Origin: Branchiostoma lanceolatum
Lineage: Eukaryota > Chordata > Leptocardii > Amphioxiformes > Branchiostomatidae
DNA length: 64,000 nucleotides
Reading direction: 5' to 3'
Assembly: GCF_035083965.1 (NCBI RefSeq)
Contig: NC_089738.1
Location: 19,246,734-19,310,733, forward strand
The notes below the pieces were generated by a model, which was not told the DNA's origin, did not search any database, and was given only the letters and a program-made list of their open reading frames with translations. This document shows, piece after piece, positions 10,165 through 35,400 of this stretch. Numbering within the stretch: the stretch's first letter is position 1; each line of letters begins with the position of its first letter. Both the position numbers and the translations under genes were made by a program.

Positions 10165-13100
10165 ATGTGTATTAACAAGAAGAGACTGGTGAAACATCTG
10201 ATTCTTCTGCTCATGATCTTGAAGAAAGGTGGACCGGCCAAACCGTGTGCACAACACTGTCTATCGTTTTGTGACTGTAGTTCCCAAGACCTCAGGGGTG
10301 TTCCTCAAGATCTACCCATAGGTGTCGTGAAGCTTCAGTTAAGAGACAACGACATCGTATCCTTGAGCCAGTCTGACTTTTCCAGGTACCCGAAATTGGA
10401 AGAGATCTTATTGCCTGCAAATAGCATAACCAGAATTCAGACGAACACATTCTCAAATCTGCTCCAGCTTGAAACGTTGGATCTGGGTTTCAACCAAATA
10501 ACAATTATCGAACCTGGTTCAGTTTCAAATCTCCCAAAGCTGTCTTTGCTTAGTTTGTACTACAACAAGATAACTGCCATTCATCTTGGTTCATTTTCAA
10601 ATCTCCCAAAGCTGTCTTTGCTTAGTTTGTACTCCAACAAGATAACTACCATTCATCTTGGTTTATTTTCAGGTCTACCCCAACTTACCTATATGTCCCT
10701 GAGTCGCAACCAGATAACTGTCATTGAGCCCAGTTTATCTTCTAAAAAACATCTACTGGATATGTCACTCTCCGCCAACAAGATAACTAACATTCACCCT
10801 AGTTTATTTTCAAATCAACCCCGACTGGAAACTTTGAGCCTTTCTAAAAACCAGATAACAATCATCCAGCCTGGCACATTTTCAAACATGCCTAAGCTGA
10901 ACTGGCTGCGCCTGGAATACAATCAGATAACTAGCATTCAAGCTGGTTCATTTTTCAATCTGCCCCAGCTACGGTGTTTGGACCTGCGGTTCAACCAGAT
11001 AATCAACATTCAGCCTGATTCACTTTCAAATCTAACCCAGCTTTTCAGGTTGCAACTTAAGTCCAACCTTATAAGTAGCATCCAGCCTGGTACATTTGCA
11101 AACTTCAACAATCTCGAATGTTTGGACTTGGACTCCAATAGGTTATATAACATTCCCATCGACATATTTTCAAACCTACCCCGGCTGAAGGAATTGTCCC
11201 TGAGCGATAATCAAATAAAGACACTGTCAGAATATCATGCCCTGATATTGATAGGAACTGTACACCTTACAAATAACCCATGGCAGTGTGACTGTAGAAT
11301 GGTAACATTCAGGGAAAATATGGCCGGGGCACAGTTTGAGGATGAAATCAAATGTAAAGAGCCCAGGCCGTTCTTTGGAAAGAAGCTCAAAGATATAAAC
11401 TCAGAGGATCTGATCTGTGAAGCACCGAGAATCGTGAGGTTCGAAGTGGTAGGTGCAAATAGTACCATGTTAAAAGGGGAGACACTCTTTTTGCTGTGTG
11501 AAGTTTCAGGCATCCCGACACCAGACATCACAGTCACTCTCCCGTCTGGGCAGAATGCAACTGTTGAGTCAGGAGGGAGAGTGACTGTGGGAGTGAATGG
11601 TACCATCACCATCAAAGATATTGCTGCAGCAGATTCTGGTCAGTACGTCTGTTTTACAGCAAGTCTTTTTGGTTCCGCGTCTGCCACACTGTCTACTGAA
11701 ATTGAAATGCTGACATCAGCACGCCCATCATTATATAAAACTTCATCATCGCCAAGTGCAATATCCGTTACACGTGGCAACAAAGATAGCGCCGCTGACC
11801 GAACTCTCCTCTACCTTTCTGTTTTCATTGGTGTTGTTGCGACCATGCTGATATGTTGTCCTGTCATTGTAATTTTCTATAAGAGAAGTGCCAAAAAGCC
11901 TCCACAAGTACCAGTAACCTGTGCTACTTTCAATAATGTTCTACCAGTTGTAACAGTACCCGATAGTGCTTTAGGGGGGCATGGGATTTCTTTCAACTCC
12001 GAGACATCCTCACTGGCTGTAACTAGAACGAGTGCCGGTGACCAAGGGGGTCAGGGTCGGGCTTTGACTCAAGGAACAGCCCAAGCGTCTGTATCAACTG
12101 ATTCCGTATCCAGGCAAGATATCAATGTATATGAAAATGACAATGTTGATGAAGTAATATCAACTCATTCCGTATACGGACAAGATATCAATGTATATGG
12201 AAATGACGATGATGTATTACCAACTGCAGAGTCTGTATCCGGGCAAGATATCGATGTATATGAAAATGATGATGACGTATTACCAACTCATTCAGTATCC
12301 GGACAAGATATCAATGTATATGAAAATGAAAATGTTGATGAAGTAATATCAACTCATTCCGCATACGGACAAGATATCAATGTATATGAAAATGACGATG
12401 ATGTATTACCAACTGCAGAGTCTGTATCCGGGCAAGATATCGATGTATATGAAAATGATGATGACGTATTACCAACTCATTCAGTATCCGGACAAGATAT
12501 CAATGTATATGAAAATGAAAATGTTGATGAAGTAATATCAACTCATTCCGCATACGGACAAGATATCAATGTATATGAAAATGACGATGATGTATTACCA
12601 ACTGATGAGTCTGTATCCGGGCAAGATATCAATGTATATGAAAATAATGATGACGTATTACCAACTCATTCAGTATCCGGACAAGATATCTATGCATATG
12701 AAAATGACAATGAATTAGTACCACCTGATTATTCCGTATCCGGACAAGATATCAAGCTATATGAAAATGATGATGCTGATGAAGTATTATCAACTGGTTC
12801 CGTATCTGAGCAACACATCAATATGTATAAGAAAGATGATGATGGTTCAATATCTGGATGTTTTGTGTCAATGAAACATGCCAATATGCACGACGACGGA
12901 GAGAACGCAATGTCTGCGGAGCATATTGAAATGCATGACGATGACGAAGCAATATTTGATGATATTGAAGATCAGATAGACGTTTCTGAGCATGACAGTA
13001 ACGATCAGAAAGCAAAGTTTGCTTCTTCCAAATCCATGTATGACAAAGGGAATGACAAAGAAACATCTGTCTCCTTTCAGCTAATGTCTAAGAATGAGAA

Positions 13101-13293
13101 AGCAGAACAAAGTGCTTCTTCTAGATCCATGTATGACAATGCGAAAAAGAAAGAAGCTTCTGTTTCTGCTCAGCTCATGTATAAGAAGGATAAAGCAGTA
13201 CAAAGTACTGATCAGTTAATCTATGGGAGGGACAAAGACGAAGCTACTGAAACTGCTAGTGTCTATGGAGCCTCTGAGGTGGGTCTAAACTAG
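10165..13293 (+). CDS. LRR-Ig single-pass receptor with tandem pYxN cytoplasmic repeats (1042 aa)
   Basis: One uninterrupted coding exon. Order: signal peptide (~1-25, core LILLLMIL); LRR N-cap with CxxxCxCxxxxL (~28-51); thirteen 24-residue leucine-rich repeats (~54-365, LxxLxLxxNxI); LRR C-cap NNPWQCDC (~370-420); one Ig domain with both Cys (LLCEVSG..DSGQYVCF, ~425-510); TM helix (~547-573); ~470-residue acidic tail. The tail carries twelve ~21-residue units, SVSGQDINVYENDDDVLPT (residues ~647-899); eleven keep Tyr-x-Asn, and one more YDN lies near the C-terminus. pYxN is the Grb2-type SH2 ligand. LRR-Ig proteins are an expanded, presumably innate-immune or adhesion family in amphioxus; the ligand is unknown. 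The start fits the signal peptide. AATAAA signals follow at 13329 and 13383. Confidence 0.92.
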   Translation: MCINKKRLVKHLILLLMILKKGGPAKPCAQHCLSFCDCSSQDLRGVPQDLPIGVVKLQLRDNDIVSLSQSDFSRYPKLEEILLPANSITRIQTNTFSNLLQLETLDLGFNQITIIEPGSVSNLPKLSLLSLYYNKITAIHLGSFSNLPKLSLLSLYSNKITTIHLGLFSGLPQLTYMSLSRNQITVIEPSLSSKKHLLDMSLSANKITNIHPSLFSNQPRLETLSLSKNQITIIQPGTFSNMPKLNWLRLEYNQITSIQAGSFFNLPQLRCLDLRFNQIINIQPDSLSNLTQLFRLQLKSNLISSIQPGTFANFNNLECLDLDSNRLYNIPIDIFSNLPRLKELSLSDNQIKTLSEYHALILIGTVHLTNNPWQCDCRMVTFRENMAGAQFEDEIKCKEPRPFFGKKLKDINSEDLICEAPRIVRFEVVGANSTMLKGETLFLLCEVSGIPTPDITVTLPSGQNATVESGGRVTVGVNGTITIKDIAAADSGQYVCFTASLFGSASATLSTEIEMLTSARPSLYKTSSSPSAISVTRGNKDSAADRTLLYLSVFIGVVATMLICCPVIVIFYKRSAKKPPQVPVTCATFNNVLPVVTVPDSALGGHGISFNSETSSLAVTRTSAGDQGGQGRALTQGTAQASVSTDSVSRQDINVYENDNVDEVISTHSVYGQDINVYGNDDDVLPTAESVSGQDIDVYENDDDVLPTHSVSGQDINVYENENVDEVISTHSAYGQDINVYENDDDVLPTAESVSGQDIDVYENDDDVLPTHSVSGQDINVYENENVDEVISTHSAYGQDINVYENDDDVLPTDESVSGQDINVYENNDDVLPTHSVSGQDIYAYENDNELVPPDYSVSGQDIKLYENDDADEVLSTGSVSEQHINMYKKDDDGSISGCFVSMKHANMHDDGENAMSAEHIEMHDDDEAIFDDIEDQIDVSEHDSNDQKAKFASSKSMYDKGNDKETSVSFQLMSKNEKAEQSASSRSMYDNAKKKEASVSAQLMYKKDKAVQSTDQLIYGRDKDEATETASVYGASEVGLN
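12103..12861 (+). repeat. In-frame minisatellite encoding YxN docking repeats; 189-bp higher-order unit
   Basis: Twelve in-frame units of 20-22 codons. Units 2-4, 5-7 and 8-9+ form a higher-order repeat of exactly 189 bp (the TACGGACAAGATATC junction recurs at about 12172, 12361 and 12550), near-identical at DNA level, so the array expanded recently. Unit 12 has lost the motif (YKK). Copy-number polymorphism is likely. Confidence 0.9.
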
Positions 13294-13388: not shown

Positions 13389-14164
13389 TGATATAAAAAA
13401 CCATGTTGATATCCTGTTCTTATTTCCACACTCGTCTCTTTTATCAAGATTACTACAACCATTCTGATCTAAGTTGTGGAACGGAGATCATGCAGCTTAT
13501 GACTGGACGTCTTGTGCTGCGATGTTAGTGCATGGCAAGAAGGTGATTAATGTTTACAATGTTTCCACTGCAGAGGCGTTATGCATTGTAAGTAATATGT
13601 CAAAGTGAAAACCCTTACTTGTCATCTTCTCTTGTCTTAACACATGTCCAGACTTTTACATGTTTTCTTAATGTCTCAGGGGCCTTTAGAATTCACACAT
13701 TACAAAAAAATTCGCTGCAAATGCACAGTTCTAAGTATGAAATTAATTTTTCTTTTCCCGATTCTTTGATTTCTTATGTAGGCATGATATCAATGAATAT
13801 TTTGAAATGACGATTACCAAGTATTACTAACTGATATCGTATCAAGGCAAAATATACATATCATTGTATTTGAAAACTATAGTCCCCTCACCTCGTACAT
13901 TGGGTGTCATGTTTCTCATTATGCAGATAATGTCCTTATTTTCATAAATCATATCAGCTGATCATCTTTTCTATCCAAGTAACACAAGTCGTTCAATGTA
14001 TGAAAGTCTTATTTTAGCAAAGAAGGCTGTTGTAGCATTTCTCCAAGAAATTTACCGGTCCCCCGAGTGAATTGTCGTCTTGGGAAGGTTTTGTCTGTGA
14101 TCCTTAATTATCGTCCAATAACGCCATCCGTGACTAACCGAATGATTCTTAAGTGACTCCACTT
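13389..14164. other. Intergenic gap between convergent LRR-Ig and RTK genes
   Basis: No gene, clear element or strong structure seen. It should hold the 3' UTR of the minus-strand RTK that stops at 14165. A short piece (about 13786-13870) resembles the receptor tail repeat (GGCATGATATCAATGAATAT.., CTGATATCGTATC) and may be a decayed spill-over of that minisatellite. Confidence 0.35.
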
Positions 14165-17100
14165 TCAGAAGTACAATGCCTCCGACTCAATGAAATCTGA
14201 GTCTAAGTCTAGCACTTCTATCTGCTCCTCGCCGATGACTTTAGCGCTGCCTTGCCGCTGTTTCCTTTTGTTATTTTTTGGGGGAACTTTGTAGTAAACC
14301 GCCCCGATCTTAGCACCATATTTCGAGGATCTCCCCGACAGTCGAGGATTAACAAACTGGACCTCGGCAGAGTTCGAGTCAGAGTTGTCCTTGCCTTTCT
14401 CTAGCCGTTTGTTTTTCCGGGGAGACCTGTTGGACACGCCTTTGTTCGCCTGAATCTGGTCACGATCCTTTGATGAATCATCCCCCTGACCAATGGTGAC
14501 ATCCTTCGCTTCATTGGATCTCCTGACATCTTCAACAGATGGTTGAGAAGTCTCAGCTCTGTTTTCTTTAAGATCCTCCGATGCTTGAGACGTTCCCGAG
14601 GTACTGGACGCCTCCAGGCTTTCCTTGGAAGACGCGAGGCTGTCTGTGAAGATTCCCGAACTCTTCTCGTCGTCTGAAGACGCGGAGGAGAGCTTGAGGT
14701 AGCTGACGTCAGCGTTCTTCTCCACCAGGCGGTCCAGCTCCAGGTGCAGCTGCTGGAACCCCGGGCGGCTGAACTCGTCCCACTGCCAGCAGCTCAGCAT
14801 CAGGTTGTACCTGTGGCAATCAAGTCATTGAAAAGTTACTTCTGTGATAGATAATTATGAATATAGATATAGATATATATATAGAATATAAAATATACCG
14901 CTATCGCCTGCCTTTACGCATAAAATTGTCTCCAAATTAACGTAGAATGTGGTGATGGTTGGTGGCAAGTGCAAGTTCCCCTTAGCATGAAGTAGATGTG
15001 TCAAATTTATTTTGTTTCTTGCATTCAAGTTAAGTAAACACCAAAATCTATACAAACCCACCTCACCTCAGCACTACTCGTCAGCGCCCTGTATAATGAA
15101 CATTATTCAGCTCTGCTGCTAAGCTGAGGACATGGCAACAGCATAGAAAAAAACAAGTGCCAAATTGAAATCGCCGTGGCAACATCTGTCCACCATTTAG
15201 GTTAACTTTTAATCTGAAGTACATTGAATAACACATTCTACATTACAATTTTGAGGGGGCAATTGCTTTGGAAGAGTCTTTTTTGTGCACATATGCAGTA
15301 AACGAAAGTTTTTACGTACAGTTCCCAGGGGCACCCCTGCGGGCGATGCTCTCGGTGTCCCCTGCGCAGTTCCTCCAGCAGGGTGCTTCCCAGACTCGGG
15401 TAAGGAACGTCCCCTAGCGCCGCGATCTCGTACAGCACCACTCCGAACGACCAGCTGTGGAGGTGGGATGTTCATATTGTATTTGTTACTACCCCAAGTT
15501 CTGTAAAAGTTAAGCGTCCATCTGACATAACTGCAACCCTCAACCCTGGGACGACCGTTTTATCCCAAATCGACCACCAAATTTTTGTGTACGCAACTCT
15601 ATCCAACACTTCAGATTTTGAAAATATAATTTTGGATGTACATTTGTCTACAGTCAATCTATCACCTGTTGAAATTCATGCTAGTTTCTCTTTTATTTAT
15701 ACGTGCACGTGTGATTAAAAGATGTAGGAATTCGAAGATTGGGGTTTGCAACCGATTTGTCCGAAATACTTCACCAGAATCATTCCCTATATGCAGGTAG
15801 ATGTTTTAAACCCAGGTACTCACACGTCGCTCTTGCTTGTGTATCGGCCCTCCCTCAGCAGCCTTTCCGGCGCCATCCACCTGACGGGGATCTTCTGCTC
15901 CGCGTCCTGCCGCTGGTAGCCTCGCTCGTAGACGTCTGTGGCCAGCCCGAAGTCTGCGATCTTCACCACCAGGTCCTCTCCAACAAGAACGTTCCGGGCG
16001 GCCAGGTCGCCGTGCACGTACCCAGCCTCGGATATGAAGATCTGCTCCGACAACAACAGAATTTGGTAACAACAAGCTAGATCTTCTTCAAGAAACAAAA
16101 ATATCAATGTTCAGTCTAAAGAGTTGTCAGCTTTGCTCTGCGCTAAGTGACTCATGTGCTTGGACTGCGTATTCCTTGGGATCATATTTTCATTAACGTT
16201 CGATCCGTAGAAAGACAAATACTATACTGTAACAGTATACTTTGGAACTCACCATGCCGTTTGCTATCTGCCGTCCGATCTGGTACATCTTCAACTCCGT
16301 CATGTCATAGACGCTGTTCAACACGTTCGCCAGCGGCTGTGGGGGAAGAAATGCAGCTCTAAAGGTACAAGTATGATAATTTCAGTACAAAAACAAAGAT
16401 GTCTCAGACATAAAGCCAGCCTGCAAGTAGCCTGGAACCGATCCTATTCTAGCTTCAGTTAGCTTCTCTGCTCGCGTCCAAGCATAATACGACATACACG
16501 TCTTTGATTTTTAAAGCTTCTAGTCTGCTGGCGTAGAGGACTTAAGAAAAAGACTAGTAGACAACTTTTCGACCAACTCACAACCACAGATGTCCTTACT
16601 GTCGACAATGACATGTAGTAGGACGGGACGCCATGGACAGCTATATGTAACAGGGTCTGAGATAGGGGCTTTATGCTCTTGCTATATCAGATGTCTTCAA
16701 ATATGCCTAGATCTTCTCACCTGTCGGCACTTGAGCAGGAACTTCTTGAGGTCTCCATACGCCATGTACTCCGCGACCAGGTAAGGCGGGTTGGACAGCG
16801 TGCAGCAGCCGACCAGACCCAGCAGGTTCTGGTGCTGCCCCAGATTTATGGTCGTCTCGATCTCACGGACAAACGTCGCCTTCTCTTCTACAGTGGCGCC
16901 ATCTAGATGCATAACATACATAATAAATTGGTCATGAGAAAGTGCTGCTGTAACAAATCTTACATTGATGCAGCAAAGGTTAATCTTGCACCAAACACAA
17001 AAGTGGGCATTTCCTCTACACTGACGCCATCTACACATGGCGGAGTGGGCCCTACAGCATTTCAGTTTACTTGAGTACAAGCACAAAGTACAAACTCATT

Positions 17101-20100
17101 TAAGGCCTAGTCTACGGCCCTCTTAAGCGTCACTGACCATCCAGTTTGGCCACGTTACGTAGTAGGTCGGACTTGCCGCTGAATTTCGTGCGTACAGACT
17201 GCATGCCTAGTATAGAATTTGAATTCTGTTTTGTTCTTCACATTCTTTATAACAATAAGCTACTTCATGGTTTGAAGCGTGCGTGTGCAGTTTGATGCAT
17301 CCTGGGTAACATATCAAAGTCATTCTTACTTTATGGCCAGAGGCCTCCATCTTTGACGCAATGAAATCCACAATGTATTAAAAAAAACTGCGCAATTCAG
17401 ACTTTGAACTAGCTTATTGCTGGGGCTTACCATGAACAGTCTTGACCACTACAGTCCTGTCCGCTGGCAGTCCGTCTGCAGTTCTCCTGAGAGTCGCCAG
17501 GTGGACGACCCCGAAGGCGCCCCTGCCGATCTGTTCCCTCAGCTCCAGGTGGTGCCGGTCCACTTCGTACTTCAGGAACTGTGGCCGGGTGGGCACCGGC
17601 GGGGGCACCTGTTCCAACGGGTACACGCGGTCTGTGGGAGAGATTGCAAATTATGTTTAAGAAGCCGCTTCACGGTCTAAACTTCACACTCCGTAGCCGA
17701 CTCCCTTAGCATACTATTCACTCTATTTGGCGAATTTCTGCAATTTGTCCAGCCATCCACGGAGCCTGGTAGAGGCTATCGTTAAGTAAGCGGTTTCGTG
17801 GTTAAAAGTGCGCATCCACGAGGTCAAAGATCAAGTGCAGGCAACAAATCTATTCCCAAATCGTGTGAATAAAATCTAACACATAGACGTACCTAAGATG
17901 AACGGATGGAAGTACCAACGCCCCTTCTGTGTCTCGGCGCGCGCTCGTTTTTTCTTCCCCCACCAGCACCTCAGCCCTCCCGCCAGCAGGATCGCGACGA
18001 CCAGCGTTGAGCCCAGTGCGATCAGCGCGATCTCCAGCGGTGTCATCTGGCTATTAGCAAGTGTGGTAATATGTGAGCCTTCTGAAATTTCAAGAAAATG
18101 CTTGCGGTGAATCATACTATCAAAAACGCACCAAATATGACACGTGACTCGATAAAGACTTTAACTTAAAATTTGTATGTTCAAGTCATTTACATCTTCG
18201 GAGTTTGAAAATTAAGTGCATTTCAGATAGATGAAAAAACCCTCCTCCGAATGCATGCCCATCACTACTACACCCTGCTTCAGGTTAAGGTTCAAATGAA
18301 GAAGTTACCTCAGCACTTACAGCAAAGAAGCAACTTTGCAATGGTGCTTGTATTCTCGTTTGATTTTTGAAATCATTATCACCAGGCAGAATTCTTACCA
18401 GTAGTCACTGCTGTCACACCAACAGGTGGAATCGCAGCTACAGCGATCGGTTTGGGCCCTGAAATTGAAGGGAAAAAAGATACATCTATCAAATTGTTCC
18501 CAATATGGTCACAAACAAAAGAAAATGAATATGTAAAGCAACATTGTTATGTGGGTAACTACTCCGAGAAGAATAACTTTGTTTTTCAATTATTTTGACA
18601 AAAATAGACGATCAAACATGTTCCATAACGGGCCATCAGAGGTCTTAAACTGTTACTTAGAAGAATAAACTTACCGACTTCAACTGTGGCATTCTTGACC
18701 GACGAGTTGCCCAAGTAGTTCCAGGCGACCACAGTGTACACGCCGGAGTCTTCCATGGTAACATCTGTGATTGTCAGGGTGCCCAGAGTGGCGTTCACCA
18801 CTGTGGCAGTAGGGAGAGAACCGTCCAACCTGCCCCACGCGTATGTGGCAGGCGGGACACAGTCGGCTGTTGCCCGCAGAACCACGGTGTCGCCTTCCGT
18901 TACAGTGGGACTGGGCGTCACCTCGACTTGTGGTACCTCTGGAGCATCTTTATGAAACGGAAAAGTATCAAGTTGTCTTAAGGTGTAAGAATAAAGCGTA
19001 CCACCATGTAGTAAAGACAGTAATGCAAATACAATGAATGTAGTGGAAAACGAAGTCAAGGGAAATCAAAAACAGGAGATTCAGTCAAATAAATTCGCAT
19101 TCCCACCATTTCCCATTTTCTTTCTCCATTTTTTCTTGAAGAGTTACTTTATACTTTAAACTTACAGTGGACGATGAGTTGTCTCTCCGCTTCGTGTTCA
19201 GAGACATCCGAGAAGGAAGCCGTGAAGGTGTAGTTCCCTGCGTCAGCCGGGCCTGTTCCGTTCAGCAGCAGGCTGGAATCACCGATAAAGCTAACCCGGT
19301 CCTATATAAAGCGAGAGGAGGAAATAATGCGTTACACATTTATCCTGTACAAGGTCCTGTTTGATATTCATCAGGTGTTGCTGTTATTCCATATGTAAAA
19401 TGTTCTTCGTTTACGTTTGTTCTAGTACGGCGGGCGTTACAAACTTCCGGGGACCTTTGACCCTCTCCTGGTCCCCGGAAGTTGGTAACCCACTAGAATT
19501 AACGTGAACGAAAGACATCTAGCCGAAGGAGTGATATACAATGAGGCTCACCAATACATTTACAAAGTCGTCGTCAAGAAAGCATCACATTTGTCTTGCA
19601 CAGAATGGCACTTACTTTGTAGTCTTCGAACCCGATAACTAAGTCCCCTATCCGTCGCATGATGCAGTTTCCGTCGGGATCCTTCCAGACCTCGTGTAGT
19701 ATGGAGCCGCCCGGACGGAGACTGTAGGTCCAGTTCAGCTGCGCAGCCCCGCCCGAGACAACCTCGCTGATGCCGTCGTCGCGAAGGTAAACATCGTTCT
19801 CTACTGTAGGAATTTTGAAGATAGGCACAGAATTAAAACAGGGAATACATCTGTAAGTAGTAAGCAGATGTAAGATCCAGTCCAGTTTCAGTGTTAACGT
19901 GCGACATTGCGTCTTTTCTGCAGGTTTCAAAATGTACACTACTAGCAAAACATACTAGACGTCGCACCATCAGGCGTAAAGCACTAAAACTGAGTTCGAA
20001 CATTGAATTTGCTCGAAGATTGAAATTAAAACAACGATGATTTAAGAGTGAGATTTATCAATGCAACATTAAAAATCCATGAGGTATGGTCGATTCAGAT

Positions 20101-21326
20101 ATCGGTGTCCAAGGCTTTCTTAAAAAGGTCTCGATAACAATATTTTGTTTTGTTTTTCAAAATCAAGTAGCTGTCTTTTGGTACCCTGGTGAATTACGAG
20201 AATTGAAATTACACTTTTATTCAAGGTGAGCATCATTTGCCTTGTTTGCTTCCCTCAGAAGTCGACTACCTAAATTTGCCGGTAACGGGATATTACAGGA
20301 AATCATCTATACTGATAAGGTGAAATCTGAAACGGTACCTGGCAGTGTAGTGGATGGTGCCGTGGTTGTGACCGGAGTCGTTGGAGATGTAGGGAGCGTG
20401 GCACCAGGCGTTGTAATCGCAGGTGTAGCTGTAGTGGCGGTTGTAACCACTGTTGTCGGTGTCGTTGACTGGGGTGTGATTGTGGTTACGGTACCGATAG
20501 GAAGAGTTGTTGTCGGTTCAGCCCCTGCGATTGTCGTTGTGCCATGTGTAGCAATGGAAGGATGCGTCGGCATGGTTGTTGACTGAGTAGTTGTTTTCGT
20601 TGTGGCTGCTTGGGTTGTCGTTGTGCCTGCAGGTAAGGTAGTGGTCGTTGCCTGAGTTTGTGTGGCCGCTTGGGTTGTCGTTGTGGTGTGTGTAGCACCA
20701 GTAGGATTCGTCGGCCAGGTTGTCGGCCTGGTCGTTGCGACTCCTTGGGTTGTCGTTGTGGTGTGTGTAGCACCAGTAGGATTCGTCGGCCTGGTTGTTG
20801 ACTGAGTAGTTGTTGTCGTTGCGACTCCTTGGGTTGTCGTTGTGCCATGTGTACCAAAGGAAGGGTACGCCGGCCTGGTTGTTGTCGTTGCGACTCCTTG
20901 GGTTGTCGTTGTGGTGTGTGTAGCACCAGTAGGATTCGTCGGCCTGGTTGTTGACTGAGTAGTTGTTGTCGTTGCGACTCCTTGGGTTGTCGTTGTGCCA
21001 TGTGTACCAAAGGAAGGGTACGCCGGCCTGGTTGTTGTCGTTGCGACTCCTTGGGTTGTCGTTGTGGTGTGTGTAGCACCAGTAGGATTCGTCGGCCTGG
21101 TTGTTGTCGTTGCGACTCCTTGGGTTGTCGTTGTGCCATGTGTAGCACCAGTAGAATGTGTTGGCAGAGTTTGCAGGGTTGCAGTTGTTGGTTTTGTTGT
21201 TGTTGTTGTTGGCGCTGTTATTGTATTCAGCGTCGATTCTGGAGTCGTTTCCGGTAAAGCTACGACTGAAACAGCGAGAAAAAATGTTTCAGGAAGAAAT
21301 TGTTCTTACTTGCATGCATATATATA

Positions 21327-21361
<35 letters not shown>

Positions 21362-24300
21362 AGATGGATAGATAGATAGATAGAGAGAGAATAGATAGAT
21401 GGATAGATATATTTAGATAGATAGCTGACTATGTTTAGCTAATGAATGTTACCATAACGACATCGCAATTGGTTCGGCAAACTAACTCTTTCTTTCTTTC
21501 TTACTTATGAAATAACAAATGCTGACATTTGCTAAAGATTTACCGTGCCCTTCCGACACCATAAAGGTAAGACAGCCAACCTTGCAGAGTCAGCTGAAAA
21601 GTCTGTGACGCCCCATCAGACGACACCATGTAGAGTTGGTAGGTTCCGGAGTCGGACGTTGTGACGTTTTTCAGCCGCAAGCCAGCATCTCCAACTAGTT
21701 CTACCCGTCCCTGCAGAATAACATGAGCTAACGTTAGTTATCATTAACCCCTAAGTACAAATGTAATAGGAATACATGTCATATACTTTTGGAAAGGAGC
21801 TTTTTTTTAAATGTTCAATTCAATTCTTAATTGACCACACATAAAAAATAATCAATAACATGCCAAACAAGACCTAAAACCCCTGTCACACTTGTGCGTA
21901 AATACAAGTCCGGATGATTAACATGCTTTGGGTTTAGAATTTAGGGTTCAGGTTAAGTTTGCAGTCGAATAAGTGATTTCGTAGATTCGATCACTAGGCT
22001 GCACAATGGTGGGAAAAGTAGAAAACAACTTTCTCCCCACAAACATTACTTAAACCAAAAAAATGTTAATGTGCAACTCACGCGCCCTTCAATATACGCA
22101 CATGTGTGACGGGGCCTAAAGTTAGGGAGACCCACACTTGGCGTGTTCTGCAGTACAGTGGTCGATTCTAGCACAACGTTATCGACATTAATAAGAAAAG
22201 AATGAAGAGCTCTAACTTCTTACCTTGTAGGCTTGGGAAATGTACTCAATGATCGTTCTGCTGGCTATCCCTGTGTCCGGTAGCTTCTTCCATGTTTGGA
22301 ACAGCGGTGCGATACCAGGTGGCATTGTGTAGGTCCACTGCAGGTCGGCGTCAGAACCCGCCGTGACGTAAACTGTGCCGCCATTTTGGATGCCTGAAGG
22401 TCAATTGAAATAAGGAACAGCTGTGAAAGAGCCCATAGATACGGAGCGTATGGAGCGAAAAGAAGAAAAGAGAGGAACATATTGCAAGAAAAGGGGATGA
22501 AAAATACCAGGTTTCGCCCCTGAGGCGTTACCATAAACAGGAGGTACTAGTTTTCATTAAAAAAAAAACATGTCTTGTTCATGTGGCTTATTTTCAACAA
22601 AGTTAACCTTCATTGTACAAGATAAATGTAGGAGTTTGATACCGAATTTGTATTGATAATGGTTATTGGGATAGGCAGCTGAGAGATGGTCAATGATGAC
22701 ACGAGTTTGACTTCGTTATATACTGTTGGACACTTGTATGACTTTTCTTATTTTTCATTTACTTCATTTCACCACAAAACAAGGCTTACTGTGAGCCATG
22801 GCACTCAAATATTTGGGTTACACTAACTGGGTTGTGATGACAAATGTTTGCTAATCTTTGACTTGAAAAGTTTGAGGTTGTGCCCGTCGGGGAAGCATTC
22901 AGAAGGGATCTTGTTCCAGAAAGATATAGGAATTAAGGACAGAAGCTTTCAGCTGGAGACTTCCTCCTGAGATGTGGAGAATGGAAGAAGAAAGTTAGAT
23001 TTTCCTCCGTGGAAGTGGCAAAATGTGTCCTAGCTGAGAAAGTTCGGAGGTGTGGAAAATAGAGCGAAGCTTAGCGGAGCGCCAATATCGGCTCTAATCC
23101 TTTGTGACCCGCCTTCACATTATCAACCATTCAACTTGTCCTTCAAATGGATGAAAAGCACAAATAGCTTATTCTCTTTCAAATGGAACTCAACAATATG
23201 GATGTATAATTAGACAATATTCAGTGATATACGACATTATGGTAACGATAAAGGAACGACGGATACATGACCTGCCAAAATCAACTTTGCAAAGTTTTTT
23301 GTCGAGTTTACATTACCAAGTCTCCCTAACCCTTTTAAAAAATCAATTTCAACGCCCCGCAATAAACTTTCCATAACCCCAGTCCATGCCACTGTTAAGT
23401 CGGTTTGTATATTAACATGTTTCTGTTGCTTGGTCCGGGCCGTTAGTAAATTACTGAGTTTGGGGTGTTATTAAATACACACGTCCATTACAGAGATCTA
23501 GTGTAAAGCAATTGACTTTTAAAAGAGATAAACGTTAAACGAGGTTTTGTTAATTTGCACCAGAATTCGTTCGTTGCCGAGTTCTTTGTTTGAAATTCTT
23601 TGATTGCCCTGCATTCCGTAATCATGGAGTACTGTAGAATTGCGACAATAAGCTCGCCTGCTAACATTACCTGCCTGGCATTAGACCCGTTACTTAGCTC
23701 ACCGCTAAGCATCCGTTTGTAACGTTGACTACAATGGTATCCATTCACCCTGAAAACGCTTTTAAGCAAACTGATTATTAACTATCCAACTCTTCTGGTA
23801 TAATCAAGGTGTCATTGTCATATAACCAAGATTTTGATTGAGAGTAATTATTTCGGTCGTTAAGGGTACGGCCACGTTCATATGGAACATGAAGATTAAT
23901 GTATGTTAAATTAATTAATTAAGCAATTTTTATATTGAAAAGTCTCATGTTAGCTATAGTCTCATTGAAAAGTTATAACAACTGCGTTTGTGGTGCATTA
24001 TAACAATTGTCTCACAAATTAATGAACTTAACATAATTTAAAATGCTGTATGATATTATAAACATGTCCGTTGCTATGGAAGTATCTTATTGTTAGCAAC
24101 GGTTGCCGTAGAGACATGCCAGCCACTTTGAATGGTCAGGAAATAAACACTCTCCAGCTGCTTGTGACTCTCGCCAATTTTGACGTCATTTGGACAAGTA
24201 TTATACCAGTTATACTACTTTATTTTCAATTCATGGCATTATTGCCTCATTTGCATAAATTTGCATAAAGAGCCCCAGAACCATAATGTTCACCGGGACC

Positions 24301-26467: not shown

Positions 26468-29400
26468 TCAGAAGAAGAGAGCCTCAGACTCCATGACATC
26501 AGAGTCGAAATCTATAACTTCTATCTGCTCTTCTCCGATGACTCTACCGCTGCCTTGCTGCTGTTTCCTGTGGCTGTTTTTGGGCGGAACCTTGTAGTAG
26601 ACGTACGGATCCGCCCCGATCTTAGCACGATCTGTAGATCGCGAAGATCTCCCCGACCGTCGAGGATCAACAAACTTGATCTCGGCAGAACATGAATCGG
26701 GGTTGTCATGGCCTTCCTTCAGCCATTTGTTTCTCCGAGGAGACTTGCGTGTGTTCGTCCGAACCTGGTCACGATCTTTTGATGAATCATCCCCCTGACC
26801 AACGGTGGCACCCTCCGCTTCATTGGATCTCCTGACATCTTCAACAGATGGTCGAGAAGTCTCGATGGTGCTATCTTTAAGATCCTCCGATACTTGAGAC
26901 GTTCCCGAGGTGCTGGGCGCCTCTAGGCTTTCCTTGGAAGACGCGAGGCTGTCTGTGAAGATTCCCGAACTCTTCTCGTCGTCTGAAGACGCGGATGAGA
27001 GCTTGAGGTAGCTGACGTCAGCGTTGATCTCCACCAGGCGGTCCAGCTCCAGGTGCAGCTGCTGGAACCCCGGGCGGCTGAACTCGTCCCACTGCCAGCA
27101 GCTCAGCATCAGGTTGTACCTACGGCAATGAATATATTGAAGAGTCAGACCTTTTCGGCTGTCATTACTTATCTAAGTATGGCTATGTCAACTTAGAATG
27201 TGGTGCTGGCTGGTGGCAAAGACACAAGATAGACATTCACTTCTCATTCAAGGCAAAAAATCCCAGAACTATCCAGACCAATTACAGATGTACCAAATTG
27301 AAACACTCTTGGCAAGCTATGTCCACCGTTGATGTTCACCTTAACCCTGAAATACATATTTCTACAGAACATCATAGAACAGAAACATTTTGAAGTAGAA
27401 CACTATATAGCAGCTTTACATGTATTTTGACAATCAATCAATCGATCAATCAAACAAAAAAATAAACAAATAGATAAATATTCGTATTGGCGACCGTCTC
27501 ATAAAACACGCAACCATTGCTTCCTGTGTCATGTAACAGCCGTTTGTGTGTGTGTAGCTAGAACTATTGGCAGCTGTGTGTATTTCAATGGTCAATGATT
27601 TGGAAGAGCTTAGTATCCAATATTCTTTTGTTACATGCAGTAAAGGAACTTTTGTACGTACAGTTCCCAGGGGCACCCCTGCGGGCGATGCTCCCGGTGT
27701 CCCCTGCGCAGTTCCTCCAACAGGGTGCTGCCCAGACTCGGGTAAGGAACGTCCCCTAGCGCCGCGATCTCGTACAGCACCACGCCGAACGACCAGCTGT
27801 GGACGAGGAATATGTACATGTATTTGGAAACAACGGCGCAACATAAAACGACAGTTCTTTACTTAAAGCTGTGTTCCTTCCAAGGAATTGATACAACCCT
27901 CAAAAGTAGCGGGCATGTTTAGGGCACCGACGGCTTGGATGGGATTCGAACTCGCGACCATTTGTCCAAAAACGGACGCGGCTTTCAATTCTTATCTATG
28001 TCAGTTGGATTTAGGACGTTCTTGGTGTACTCTCATTGACATCTTGGTGATCTAGGCTTTCTGTGTTGGCATCCGATGATGATATCCTCGACGTCGACGA
28101 GTTTACTACGGGTCCATTAGTGACACTACATTTTTCAGGAGAAGCATTTTTTGTTGTCTATCGAGGTATGCTGTTTAAACCCAGACTTTCAGGTACTCAC
28201 ACGTCGCTCTTGCTGGTGTAGCGGCCCTCCCTCAGTAGCCTTTCCGGCGCCATCCACCTGACGGGAATCTTCTGCTCCGCGTCCTGCCGCTGGTAGCCTC
28301 GCTCGTAGACGTCTGTGGCCAGCCCGAAGTCTGCGATCTTCACCACCAGGTCCTCTCCAACAAGAACGTTCCGGGCGGCCAGGTCGCCGTGCACGTAACC
28401 AGCCTCGGATATGAAGATCTGATCAGACAACAATGAAACAAGCGAGATTGTCTTCAAGAAGCAAAAATATTAACGTCAATCTGGGAGCGTTGTCAATTTT
28501 TGTTCTTCGTTAAGTTAAGGAGACTGTTTAACAAACGATTGTTTAAACTATGTCTTCCTTGATATCATATTTCCGCAGGCATTTTATCTGAAATAAGACA
28601 AACACTTTATTGAAATTGCAGCACTCACCATGCCGTTTGCTATCTGCCGTCCAATCTGGTACATCTTCAACTCCGTCATGTCATAGACGCTGTTCAGCAC
28701 GTTCGCCAGCGGCTGTGAGGGAAGAAATGCAGCTCTAAACACAAGCATGATAATTTCAGTACAAAAACAAAAATGTCTCAGACATAAAGCCAGCCTGCGA
28801 GTAGCCTGGAACCAATCCTATTCTAGCTTCAGTTAGCTTCTCTGCTCGCGTCCAAGCATAATACGACATACGCGTCTTTCATTTTTAAAGCTTCTAGTCG
28901 GCTGGCGTAGAGGACTTAAGAAAAAGACTAGTAGACAACTTTTCAACCAACTCACAACCACAGATGTCCTTACTGTCGACAATGACATGTAGTAAGACGG
29001 GACGCCATGGACAGCTATATGTAACAGGGTCTGTGATAGGGCTTTATGCTCTTACTACATTAGATGTCTTCAAATATGCTTAGATCTTTTCACCTGTCGG
29101 CACTTGAGCAGGAACTTCTTGAGGTCTCCATACGCCATGTACTCCGCGACCAGGTAAGGCGGGTTGGACAGCGTGCAGCAGCCGACCAGACCCAGCAGGT
29201 TCTGGTGCTGCCCCAGGTGTATGGTCGTCTCGATCTCACGGACAAACGTCGCCTTCTCTTCTACACTGGCGCCGTCTATATGGAAAGCAGGGCTTGTGGT
29301 TAGAGTTGTTGTGTTAGAAATTCAGAAAATTCAATGTAAAAGGTCTGGCGTCAAATTCCTAGCAGGCCCCATTGTTTTGCCCTTTCTTCGTGTATTTCTA

Positions 29401-32400
29401 GGACCTGGAACTCCAACCTTGACACCGACAATGTATCACAGTACACATGCGCAAATCAAACATTGAACTAGCTTATTGCTGATCCTTACCATGCACAGTC
29501 TTGACCACTACAGTCCTGTCCGCTGGCAGTCCGTCTGCAGTTCTCCTGAGAGTCGCCAGGTGGACGACCCCGAAGGCGCCCCTGCCGATCTGTTCTCTCA
29601 GCTGCAGGTGGTGCCGGTCCACTTCGTACTTCAGGAACTGTGGCCGGGTGGGCACCGGCGGGGGCACCTGTTCCAACGGGTACACGCGGTCTGTGGGAGG
29701 GATTGTAACAAGATATGTTCAATAACTTGAATAAGCCGCTTCACGGTCTAAACTTTACATGCCCTTGGTCAAAGGTGAAGGCCAATAACATGTGTAGTCC
29801 TTTAGGAACTGTGGCCGGATGGGTACCGGCGGGGGCGGCTGCTCCAACGGGTTCACGCGGTCTATATAAACAGCAGACAAGATACATTTGATTACAGAAA
29901 ACTCTACTAGTTTTGATGGCATCCAATGGCGCCACCACATTGACTTATAGTAGATTTTGTGCAAATACAACGAGGAACGGGAACCAACCAAATTTTCAAC
30001 TGTCACTCCGGCCTTCATCCAGGAAAAGGACTTATTGTTCTTGGTACCCTGCCTTACAGGCATGTTACCATGAATGACAATAGCCGGTGTCACCCCCCCC
30101 CCCCCCCCCCGTCTATGTTTATAGACTTTCAATGGGTGCGCATTGCATTTCACTTACGAAAACGCGATGACTTTGTACCCCACCTGGAGATTAACTCATA
30201 TTCTCCATTTCAAGTACAGGAAACTGACCTATTCTAAATATATTGAGGAGAAAATCTGATACAGCTTTAAAGACGTACCTCTGATGAACGGATGAAAGTA
30301 CCACGGTCCCTTCTGCCTCTCGGCGCGCGCTCGTTTTTTCTTCCCCCACCAGCACCTCAGCCCTCCCGCCAGCAGGATCGCGAGGACCAGCGTTGCACCG
30401 AGAGCGATCAGCGCGATCTCCAGCGGTGTCAACTGGACAGGTGGGTTTACCGGAGGCGGAGTGATATGCAGGCCTTTTGAATGGTAAAGAAAGGGCAGGC
30501 GGTGAATCAGACTACCAAAAACGTATGTATTTTACGTATGCTCAAGTCATTGACATTTTCGATATCTGAAAACTGACAAGTGCTCCAAATAAGAAACAGA
30601 AGCTCATTCCGTCTCTTTCACATCCTTCGTCAAGTTTAAATGACGACATGATTACAGCAATTACAGCAACAGCAAAAAATACAGTGACATTCTTGTTTGA
30701 TTTTCGACTCATTTACCAAGGCAGCATTCCTACCTGTCGTCACTAATGTCGCCCCAATGGATGGAATCGCAGCTACAAAGAAAGGTCTGGGTCCTGAAAT
30801 TGAAAACAAAATGCAATTACCATTTTTTGCCAAATATTTGGTCACAAATAATAGTACTGGAGTATGCAGTGGAGCAATGTTTTAGGGTAAGATGGTTAAG
30901 TCACCCCAAGAAGATATCTTTGTTTGTCAATCATTATGTTTTCATGTTTCTAAGGAAGAAACAAATTATACGTAAAGGGCCACCAAAGATACTTCAACAT
31001 TTTTTCTTAAAGGGATGTACTCACCGACTTCAATTGTGACATTCCCGACCGACGAGTTGCCCAGGTAGTTCTCGGCGACCACAGTGTACACGCCGGCGTC
31101 TTCCATGGTGACTCCTGTGATTGTCAGGGTTCCTAGAGTGGCGTTCACCACGGCGGCAGTAGGAAGAGAGCCGTCCAACCTGCCCCACGTGTATGTGGCA
31201 GGGGGGAAACAGTCGGATGTTGCCCGCAGAACTACGGTGTCGCCTTCCGTTACAGTGGGACCGGGAGTCGCCTCGATTTGTGGCACTTTTGGAGGATCTT
31301 CATGAAACGAAAAAGCAGTAATGGTTGTCTTAAAATCTAAAATCACTCGCAGCTAATATCAAAATGAAAGAAAATAGATACAAGTGAAAAGTCTTAGGAA
31401 ATCAAGGTTTTCTGTATGTTAGGCTTGTGTTTTGAGTACACCCTCACATGTATTTTAGTAGTAGGCGTCTAAATGTACTTTGTAAAAGTTTGTATTGGAT
31501 TTTGTATATTGTTCAGTTACCAGGGCTCCCCTTTAGTAATATCCTTCGGCTAGTTGGGTAGCCCTGGCTGTACTTTTTTTTGGAGCCAAATAAGTAAATC
31601 AAATCAGCCAAACAGTCCTGAGATTCAGCCAAATAAATTCAATTTCACGTCATTTCCCAATTTCTTTCTCCATTTTTCTTGAAGAATCACTTTATACTTT
31701 TAACCTACAGTGCACGATGAGTTGTCTCTCCGCTTCGTGTTCGGACACATCCGAGAAGGAAGCCGTGAAGGTGTAGTTCCCTGCGTCTGCCGGACCTGTT
31801 CCGTTCAAGAGCAGACTGGAGTCACCGATAAGACTCACCCGGCCCTGTGTAACACGAGAGAATGGGAAGCGTTTGTAGTCCATGGTACCCAACAGCAGAA
31901 GCAGGAGTTGTTTATTAAAATGCTATATTTCTATGAATACAAAATCGACCGATTTTCGTACAATTACACCACAAGGAAATGAACTATTTATAATGAAATA
32001 AGAGAGAAGTGCCTCCTGTGTGGTGCAAAGTTGCCGATGCAATTAATATTTTCGGATTCAGAAAAGCAGTCTGTTAACCAGAATAAATGTTTTGGGTGGA
32101 TTTCACCTTTAAACGTTTATCCCGCACAGATCTTTGACCGATTATACGGTCTACAATATAAGTGCTGTTACTCTCTCCTAGATTTCTTTTTGTAACATTT
32201 GTTCAAGTGCGGCGGGCGGTCCTAGCTTCCGGGGACCTTTGACCCACTCTTGTAAGAAGCGAGTGGGCATCCTGAAGTTTGTACCGTCCACCGTACGAGA
32301 AAATACAAACTTCCGGGAAGCTTTGACCCACTCTTGGCATCTGTAAGAAGCGAGTGGGCCATAGGCGATGTCCGGAGGTTTGAACGTTCCACCGTACGTG

Positions 32401-35400
32401 AAAATTTTAGACAAAAGACATCGAACAAAGGGAATAATACAAGGATAGAATGAAGCATCAAATTTTGCTCACACAAAGAGAATGTCACTTACTCTATATT
32501 CTTCGTTACCGAAAACTAGGTTCCCTATCCGGCGCATTATGAGTTCGTCGTCTGGACCCTTCCAGACCTCGTGGAGAATGAAACTGTCGGGGCGGAGACT
32601 GTAGGTCCAGTTCAGCTGCGCAGCCCCGCCCGAGACAACCTCGGTCATGCCGTCGTCGAGAAGGTAAACAGCGTTCTCTATGAAAGGAATTTCGGAAAAT
32701 AAGCTAAGAAAAACGCAGATTACCTCTGTGAGTGATACAAATTCCAGTTGTAAATATAATAAGAATTTTCTAAGCAGATGTAACGATCCGGTTCAGCGTT
32801 TTACGCGTGATTGTACGACAATGCGTCTTATCTGTTTAAGGTTTTATAACCTGCACTACTAAATTTTTATTATTAATAAAAATGGTACCGATTGGAAGAG
32901 TTGTTGTCGATCCATCCCCTGTAGTGGTAGTTATGCCAGTGGAAGTTGGTGTCGGTGCAGTTGTCATTGCTTGGGTTGTTACTGTTCCATGTGTCTGAGT
33001 TGGTGTCTGTGTGGTCGTCATGGCTTGGGTTGTTATTGTACCATGTGACTGAGTTGTTGTCTGTGTAACTGTTGCTAGAGTTGTCGTTATACCTTGTAGC
33101 TGAGTTGTTGTCTGTGTAGTTGCTTGGGTTGTTATTGTACCGTGTGTCTGAGTTGTCATTGCTTGGGTTGTTACTGTCCCATGTGTCTGAGTTGTCATGG
33201 TACCGATTGGAAGTGTTGTTGTCGATTCACCCCCTGCGATCGTTGTTGTGCCGGCGGAAGCTGTGGTTGGTGCAGTTGTAGTTGCCTGGGTTGTTACTGT
33301 TCCATGTGTCTGAGTCGGTGTTTGGGTTTGTGTAGAAGCGTGCGTTGGTCGGGTTGTTTGGGTTGGTGTTGGTGTTTGTGTAGAAGCGTGCGTTGGTTGG
33401 GTTGTCAACTGTGTAGATGTTGCAGTTGTCGTTATACCCTGTGTGGTAGTCTGAACTGATGTCGCTGTAATCATTTGGGCTGTCGTTGTGCCATGTGTCG
33501 CTTGTGTAGTCTGGGTTGGTGTCATCGTAATGGCTTGGGCTGTCGTTGTGCCATATGTCGCTTGTGTAGTCTGGGTTGGTGTCACCGTAATGGCTTGGGT
33601 TGTCGTTGTGCCCTGTGTCGCTTGTGTGCCCTGTGTAGCTTGTGTTGGCCTGGTAGTCACTTGGGTGGTTGCAATTGGTTTTGTTGTACCCTGAGTTGTA
33701 GTCTGGGTTGGAGTAGGTGTAGTTATTGGAGTTTGTGTGGTGGGACGATGTGAGGGATGAGTACCATGCGTGGTAGTCTGAAGTGGTGTCGTTGTAATCA
33801 TTTGGGCTGTCGTTGTACCCTGTGTGGTGGTCTGGGTTGGCGTCATTGTAATCATTTGGGCTGTCGTTGTGCCCTGTGTAGTAGTCTGGGTTGGCGTCGT
33901 TGTAATCATTTGGGCTGTCGTTGTGCCCTGTGTGGTAGTCTGGGTTGGAGTAGGTGTAGTTATTGGAGTTTGTGTGGTAGTCTGGGTTGTAGTCGGTGTA
34001 GTTGTTGGTGTGTGTGTGGTGGGACGATGTGAGGGGTGAGTACTAGCTTGGGTTGGCCTGGTTGTGGTTTCGGGGGTAGTTGTAGTTTCAAACATGGTGG
34101 TTGTAACAGTTGTCGATGTTGCAGGTGCCAGGGTTTGAACTCCTTGTATTTGTGTTGCTGTTGTTATTGGGACCAGTATTGTTGTATTCCCTGGGAGAAG
34201 GGTTGGCAGGGTTATAGTAGACTGGCCCCCAGTTGAGTTTGTAGCTTGGGTGGATGACTGATTAGCTGCGGCGAATGTTGTTGACTCTGTTGTTGTGTCC
34301 AGCGTCGATTGTGAAGTCGTTTCCGGAACAGCTACGACTGTAACAGCGAGAATAAAGTAGTTATAGAGATTAAGAAATCGTTAATGATCAAATGTTCACT
34401 GGTTCATATATTACATGCATAGTATTCTAGCTATCTTTAAGCGATGAATGTTTCACCTCAGGCACCGCAACTGATTCGATGTAAAGGAACAAATTCTGAC
34501 ATTGATGAGAAAGATTAATGTTTTTCCCAAAAAAATGTAAAGGGAACACAGTTAAAAGCTCCCCAAATTATAATGGTAAGACATTCAAAAAATTATTGAT
34601 TGATTGGTTCATTGATGATTGCATGATTGATTGATTGATTGGTTTGTTGGTTAATTGATTGGTTGGTTGATTGGTTGATTGATTGATTGATTGACATCTA
34701 ACCTTGCAGAGTCAGCTCCAGAGTCTGTGACGTCCCATCAGACGACACCATGTAGAGTTGGTAGGTTCCGGAGTCGGAGGTTGTGACGTTTTTCAACCGC
34801 AAGCCAGCGTCTCCAAACAGCTCTACCCGTCCCTGTAAAATAACATTATCAATTAACCGATTAAGGTTAGATATCCACACTATACGCAAGGTAGCAGTTA
34901 CTAAAGTAACTGGATAGAATTGGAAAACGGTCATCGTTTCAGACAGCATCCGCTGTCTTTCATCAGTGACCGAACGAGAATCTGGACTTATCGTGTTTTT
35001 AGCCAGAACTCTGAACCAAACATCCCCCTTTTAGTTGCCTGTGTATTTTTATTTCTCCGACAAACGTATGAAATAAATTTGTGTGAATTCTCCATCTCAA
35101 TATTAAACATATCAAGATAAAAACACCAATAGCACGGCAAGCTATCCCTGCAGACTGGAAACTTGTCGCCTTCCACCAAGTGGCACGGTTACTCTTTTAT
35201 TGGACTGGAAATGAATTATCATCGTGATTTTTACCTGATAAGCTTGGGAAATGTAAACATTGCCCGTCTTGCTGGCGATCCCAGTGTCCGGAAGTTTCTT
35301 CCATGTTTGGAACAGCGGTGTGATACCCGGTGGCAGTGTGTAGGTCCACTGCAGGTCGGCGTCAGAACCCGCTGTGACGTTCACTGTGCCGCCATTTTGG

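Follow-up and report, generated by a model that had tools for sequence, protein, structure and literature searches.

The lancelet gene described here encodes a receptor with leucine-rich repeats (LRRs), an immunoglobulin (Ig) domain, one transmembrane (TM) helix and a long acidic tail, in which eleven of twelve tandem units present the sequence Tyr-x-Asn (YxN). The receptor tail is real and unusual. Read from its sequence, it is best taken as a multivalent phosphotyrosine scaffold that would recruit adaptors of the Grb2 family, and we hold this single reading with moderate confidence. Its main rival is neutral expansion of the array.

The receptor gene and its neighbors

The gene is intronless, with an open reading frame (ORF) of 1042 codons. 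Its principal features are as follows.

10165..13293, + strand: single-exon coding sequence of an LRR-Ig-TM receptor with a long tail (ATG at 10165, stop at 13293, 1042 aa)
10324..11277, + strand: about 14 LRRs with a period of about 24 aa (aa 54-371; Pfam LRR_8, E = 2.6e-80, and motif positions)
11440..11694, + strand: Ig domain of I-set/Ig_3 type (aa 426-510; Pfam Ig_3, E = 3e-09; I-set, E = 1.4e-08)
11806..11880, + strand: TM helix (aa 548-572) followed by KRSAKK; sole hydropathy peak above 1.6 (maximum 2.86, spanning aa 545-575)
13329 and 13383, + strand: AATAAA polyadenylation signals

Pfam thus places the LRR array and then the Ig domain within one protein. Cysteine patterns flank the LRRs on both sides by eye, and Pfam lists no cap family at E ≤ 1. 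Adjoining LRRs at 10515-10671 share a 72-bp period with 95% matches in Tandem Repeats Finder (TRF), which is a recent duplication inside the ectodomain. The TM helix was called with a hydropathy threshold of 1.6, and an N-terminal hydrophobic stretch seen by eye stays below that threshold. Given the positive-inside rule, the single TM peak and the order of the domains, the simplest reading is that the 470-aa tail faces the cytoplasm. No Pfam family at E ≤ 1 has its best stretch inside the tail.

In the 64-kb window (the whole stretch of DNA analyzed) tblastn at E ≤ 1 found no second copy of the LRR-Ig gene. The sole match (E = 0.15) lies in an Ig-bearing ORF of a kinase gene, and we rejected it as a copy. 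Pfam was also run on ten ORFs from other parts of the window, the second kinase gene being represented by one kinase ORF. Three matched tyrosine-kinase models, one Ig and two F5/8 type C, and four had no match.

15820-16110, 16697-17095 and 28197-28469, - strand: ORFs matching tyrosine-kinase models (Pfam)
18586-19065, - strand: ORF matching Ig models (Pfam)
about 14165-21305 and 26468-34380, - strand: two similar receptor-kinase-like genes in tandem (ORFs and Pfam)
54722-55397, - strand: F5/8 type C (galactose-binding) ORFs, of which one passes the curated cut-off and the other falls short of it (Pfam)

These data, together with the ORF list, point to a pair of similar receptor-kinase-like genes past the 3' end of the LRR-Ig gene, both on the - strand. 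By their ORFs both have a Thr-rich repeat ectodomain, an Ig domain, a TM-like segment, a tyrosine-kinase domain and similar C-terminal tails. The adjoining kinase genes to which the earlier note had pointed are real by Pfam, but their adjacency provides no evidence of a functional link with the LRR-Ig gene. In the open frames that encode the Thr-rich parts of the kinase genes (20593-21161 and 32944-34020, - strand) TRF also detects tandem repeats, one with a 153-bp period and 100% matches and others with periods of 54-60 bp. The LRR-Ig gene is therefore not the only one here whose open frame holds a recently expanded repeat. Elsewhere in the window an ORF at 52008-52526 on the + strand resembles by eye the C-terminal part of a LINE reverse transcriptase.

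The tail array, its conservation and its history

The tail contains twelve contiguous tandem units of 20-22 aa, occupying aa 651-904 (from 12115 to 12876). The motif tyrosine lies in YEN in ten units, in YGN in unit 2 and in YKK in unit 12. This bears out the earlier note, which had described YEN or YGN in eleven of twelve units of about 21 residues in an acidic setting, with another YDN near the C-terminus.

12115..12810, + strand: units 1-11, with eleven YxN sites (Tyr 656, 678, 699, 719, 741, 762, 782, 804, 825, 845 and 866; spacing 20-22 aa)
12811..12876, + strand: unit 12, Tyr kept and Asn replaced (YKK)
12166-12180, 12355-12369 and 12544-12558, + strand: second-Tyr sites, one per higher-order copy
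12721..12732, + strand: PPDY (aa 853-856), a single PPxY (a motif type bound by WW domains) where unit 10 ends
13020..13205, + strand: two 93-bp (31-aa) lysine-rich repeats with YDK, YDN (Tyr990, 13132-13134) and YKK

Units 1-11 have a net charge of -60 over 232 aa. Both the tail and the array fall on the disordered side of the charge-hydropathy boundary (0.414 against 0.468, and 0.415 against 0.506, respectively). The C-terminal 95 aa (13006-13290) change from strongly acidic to near-neutral and lysine-rich, with a net charge of +2, and hold five more tyrosines, in YDK, YDN, YKK, YGR and YGA. In units 2, 5 and 8 a second Tyr (SVYG or SAYG) stands seven residues ahead of the YxN Tyr.

The units were listed with a pattern that required [QE][DH]I, two residues and then Tyr. 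Since the pattern asks for Tyr and Ile, their fixation follows from the way the list was made, as does in part the fixation of Gln and Asp, and the pattern also decides where the array is said to end. However, a DNA repeat family found without the peptide rule (D2) contains the same twelve array copies, all with TAT at the end, and as the units are contiguous no Tyr-less unit is concealed among the twelve. The 26-nt core of the unit occurs at 11 sites with up to three mismatches, compared with none in 100 dinucleotide shuffles. The tail has 12 YxN sequences, where shuffles gave a mean of 1.57 and a maximum of 6, and none of 2000 reached 12. Since the units are copies of each other the sites are not independent events, and the surprise lies in the array rather than in eleven gains.

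None of the 22 tail tyrosines lies in an ITIM, ITSM, YxxPhi, NPxY, NxxY, YxxP, YDxV, YxxM, YxxQ or Y[ED]x[ILV] context, where the ITIM-type pattern was [ILVS]xYxx[ILV] or YxxPhi. The pYxN class is the only tested phosphotyrosine docking class present. A PPxY count of one was reached by 32 of 2000 shuffles, which is weak for one of 17 motifs tried, and a single RxxK and a single PxxP are unremarkable. The sole PDB match to the tail, CroV588 (whole-sequence E = 2.3e-05, best stretch i-Evalue 0.11), was rejected as a repeat artefact, its alignment tracking the repeat rhythm and not YEN. Three stretches of viral contigs match the array peptide pattern, and none encodes a relative.

Over the twelve units Tyr is fixed (12/12) and Asn nearly so (11/12), whereas the direct neighbors vary, with four different residues at each of -2 and -1, three at each of +1 and +3, and two at +4. 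Yet Gln -5, Ile -3 and Ser -9 are each found in 12/12 and Asp -4 in 11/12. Tyr and Asn vary less than the residues beside them, though no less than others of the core. The idea in the earlier note that Tyr and Asn should be held against the linker, examined here between copies only, is favored by the adjacent positions but draws no support from the rest of the core. All the Tyr codons are TAT and all eleven Asn codons are AAT; without synonymous differences, selection is indistinguishable from recent copying. Within the unit, constraint at the protein level shows most clearly in the codon variety of Ser -9, kept in 12/12 through three synonymous codons, and of Gly -6, kept in 10/12 through two.

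The unit lengths of 66, 63 and 60 nt all preserve the reading frame. They alternate as 22+21+20 aa to give a higher-order period of 189 bp, for which TRF finds 3.6 copies with 93% matches.

12115..12303, + strand: higher-order copy 1 (units 1-3)
12304..12492, + strand: higher-order copy 2 (units 4-6), 3/189 nt differences from copy 1
12493..12681, + strand: higher-order copy 3 (units 7-9), 4/189 nt differences from copy 2

Copies 1 and 3 differ at 7/189 nt. The 189-bp array is a young expansion, as had been claimed. Because its copies differ individually, a mere duplication in the assembly is disfavored. Six codons have changed, each of them non-synonymously. With about 25% synonymous changes expected, the probability of zero in 6-7 changes is 0.18-0.13 without selection, and the differences neither reveal purifying selection nor disprove it. 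For the motif Tyr and Asn codons to have escaped change altogether, the chance probability is 0.53.

Units 10-12 are more diverged than units 1-9, and array-like sequence may extend further.

12874..13002, + strand: possible degenerate units 13-15 (tentative), without Tyr or Asn at the motif positions
13767-13876, + strand: decayed relic in noncoding DNA, roughly two units spaced 65 nt apart (D2 family, 82% and 71%; blastn E = 0.004 and 0.014)

By eye units 13-15 resemble unit 12 and one another, 13 against 14 scoring 35, with His, His and Ser at the position of the motif Tyr. When scored with a profile built from units 1-11, unit 14 reaches 16.12 and unit 15 reaches 15.88. Of 2000 shuffles 264 and 282, respectively, do as well, so neither score is significant, and unit 13 scores lower (7.88). 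Scoring units 14 and 15 on the scaffold, minus the Tyr, +1 and +2 columns, was less significant still (735 and 1079 of 2000 shuffles). If these units are counted, Tyr falls to 12/15 and Asn to 11/15, which leans against preferential conservation of the motif, although their membership of the array is not significant. The relic lies 474 nt past the stop codon and beyond both AATAAA signals. Its local score of 81 compares with a maximum of 48 in 100 shuffles and 61 for the best unrelated chunk of the window. It may be a remnant of a longer array, or of a duplicated neighbor gene. A second apparent relic (23737-24071, score 61) was rejected as a long gappy alignment; a shorter query scored 46 there, compared with 72 for the relic at 13767-13876, and the last of these scans covered the chunks away from the LRR-Ig gene and that relic.

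Proposed adaptor docking and its rivals

From the ORF, the domains, the TM peak, the array with its motif class and acidity, and its recent expansion, all of which are observed, we infer a cytoplasmic tail that would be phosphorylated, bind adaptors and give a signaling output. The LRR-Ig ectodomain would bind some ligand, and on clustering a Src-family kinase would phosphorylate the Val-Tyr-Glu/Gly-Asn sites. Each pYxN could then bring an adaptor with a Grb2-family SH2 domain, either Grb2 or GADS and possibly one of Grb7 type, and the SH3 domains of the adaptor would draw partners such as SOS, SLP-76 or WASP. With eleven near-equal sites 20-22 aa apart, valency might provide both signal gain and clustering. 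The assignment of pYxN to the Grb2-family ligand class, made in the earlier note, agrees with the literature. Binding of pYxN is reported for Grb2-family SH2 domains (PMC10065799), for that of GADS (PMC6669380) and likewise for Grb7 (PMC5623053). The Asn at +2 is reported to be needed by the Grb2 SH2 domain, its loss costing 2-3 orders of magnitude in a model and at least 100-fold as measured (PMC12521615; see also PMC10065799).

The fit to the kinases is mixed. Lck and c-Src are reported to have a strong preference for Ile, Leu or Val at -1, whereas ZAP-70 prefers Asp at -1 and acidic flanks (PMC5889215). In units 1-11 the -1 residue is Val in nine, Leu in one and Ala in one, so that ten of eleven match the Src-family preference. 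On the other hand +3 and +4 are Asp, Glu or Asn, whereas Lck and Src have a moderate preference for a hydrophobic residue at +3, which weakens the proposal. Negative charge near LAT sites is also reported to lower phosphorylation by Lck (PMC5889215). The sites thus appear to suit a Src-family kinase best, while their acidity may hinder Lck.

Docking is favored because eleven of twelve units carry YxN while no tail tyrosine falls in another tested phosphotyrosine context, because Tyr and Asn are fixed beside varying neighbors, and because every unit length holds frame. It is weakened because three residues that binding of pYxN does not need (Gln -5, Ile -3 and Ser -9) vary no more than Tyr, because the conservation of Tyr and Asn may be mere recency, and because unit 12 lacks the Asn and the possible units 13-15 lack both residues. 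The rival explanation that we take most seriously, while judging it less probable than docking, is that the array is a young coding minisatellite. A unit that held YEN by chance would have multiplied through unequal exchange, without any selection on how many sites there are, even if one or two of them may still serve the receptor. The wholly non-synonymous codon differences and the untouched motif codons are both compatible with this at the chance probabilities given above. The decayed relic nearby and the further tandem arrays in open frames of the window point the same way. Neighboring copies are only 3-4/189 nt apart, below the rate of 1 SNP in 34 nt that PMC12373286 quotes for lancelets, although for B. 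belcheri the paper itself gives 1 in 174. Yet neutral spread does not readily account for the frame being kept by every unit, for the more diverged units 10 and 11 retaining YEN despite changed flanks, or for the presence of one phosphotyrosine docking class where the others tested are absent.

Alternatively the tail could be a disordered acidic region selected for its charge, its length or a partner that reads another part such as the QDI core, with YEN incidental. The high negative charge and the synonymous codon variety of Ser -9 and Gly -6 would suit such a region. But CK2-type sites are not enriched (15, compared with 16.22 in shuffles), and Tyr is fixed next to varying -2, -1 and +1 positions, and we regard this explanation as improbable. 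We consider it very improbable that the receptor is an ITIM/ITAM-type immunoreceptor like amphioxus BbLcLRR. It shares the LRR ectodomain, single TM, tail tyrosines and amphioxus lineage, but its 470-aa tail has no ITIM, ITSM or YxxPhi, and Pfam lists no WSC domain in the receptor at E ≤ 1. Taken together, the docking interpretation of the tail is partly supported.

Comparison with known systems and lancelet signaling

Transmembrane adaptor proteins are defined by a very short ectodomain, and LAT has no large one. The receptor, with an LRR-Ig ectodomain and about 545 residues upstream of its TM helix, falls outside that definition. LAT and related vertebrate transmembrane adaptors nevertheless share with it a membrane-anchored acidic tail and several pYxN sites, which in LAT dock Grb2 and GADS; LAT was compared by motif contexts only, by eye. 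The Grb2 sites of human LAT are given as Tyr171, 191 and 226, the last being YEN, and LAT is reported to condense with Grb2 and Sos1 (PMC6624021). The gap from Tyr171 to Tyr191 is 20 residues, compared with the spacing of 20-22 aa here. However, the three sites described in LAT have Asp or Glu at -1, which suits ZAP-70, whereas the lancelet receptor has eleven near-identical repeats with mostly Val at -1.

Vertebrate LINGO, LRIG and LRRC4/NGL similarly have LRRs followed by Ig. Matches of the receptor to PDB sequences include LRIG1, LRRC4C and LINGO-1 chains; most are to generic LRRs, the best being the IGF-binding acid-labile subunit. We know of no pYxN arrays in the tails of LINGO, LRIG or LRRC4/NGL. 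Many similar docking sites for one SH2 class within a disordered region occur in p130Cas (a YxxP array) and nephrin (YDxV sites), but these are of another motif class and are not near-exact tandem repeats in an LRR-Ig receptor. No earlier report of such an LRR-Ig receptor was found among the literature matches listed, from a search with subscription journals mostly outside it.

Among amphioxus proteins BbLcLRR is alike in its LRR ectodomain, one TM and tail tyrosines. As described, it differs in having 699 aa, a WSC domain, no Ig among the domains listed, three ITIM or ITIM-like sites and phosphatase recruitment, where the present receptor has Ig and YxN sites (PMC8211107). B. belcheri Lck is reported to phosphorylate BbLcLRR on three tail tyrosines, after which it inhibits T-cell signaling in Jurkat cells (PMC8211107). 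B. belcheri Grb2 is reported to precipitate FrLRR, which has no cytoplasmic tail (Zhan et al. 2023, PMC10199209), and a mediator such as a co-receptor has been suggested (PMC10199209). Amphioxus is also described as having SLP-76, with a WW domain, GADS and Itk, while a LAT-like molecule was reported as not found (PMC5431462). In the same report amphioxus GADS failed to bind human LAT, so its ligand preference may differ, which counts against docking.

The docking proposal is worth testing because in amphioxus an LRR receptor is phosphorylated by Lck, Grb2, GADS and SLP-76 are all present, and one group found no LAT-like molecule. A bolder extension, which we think improbable, is that the receptor is the missing LAT-like platform of a lancelet Grb2/GADS-SLP-76 pathway, built inside a recognition receptor. 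Its eleven duplicated sites would then have a gain tuned by allelic copy number, and the PPxY could provide a second contact, with the WW domain that sets lancelet SLP-76 apart. With eleven sites of the pYxN class, the receptor is a candidate for a LAT-like platform or for the mediator between Grb2 and FrLRR. If copy number varies among alleles, these would provide a natural valency series, relating the number of docking sites to signaling in one protein.
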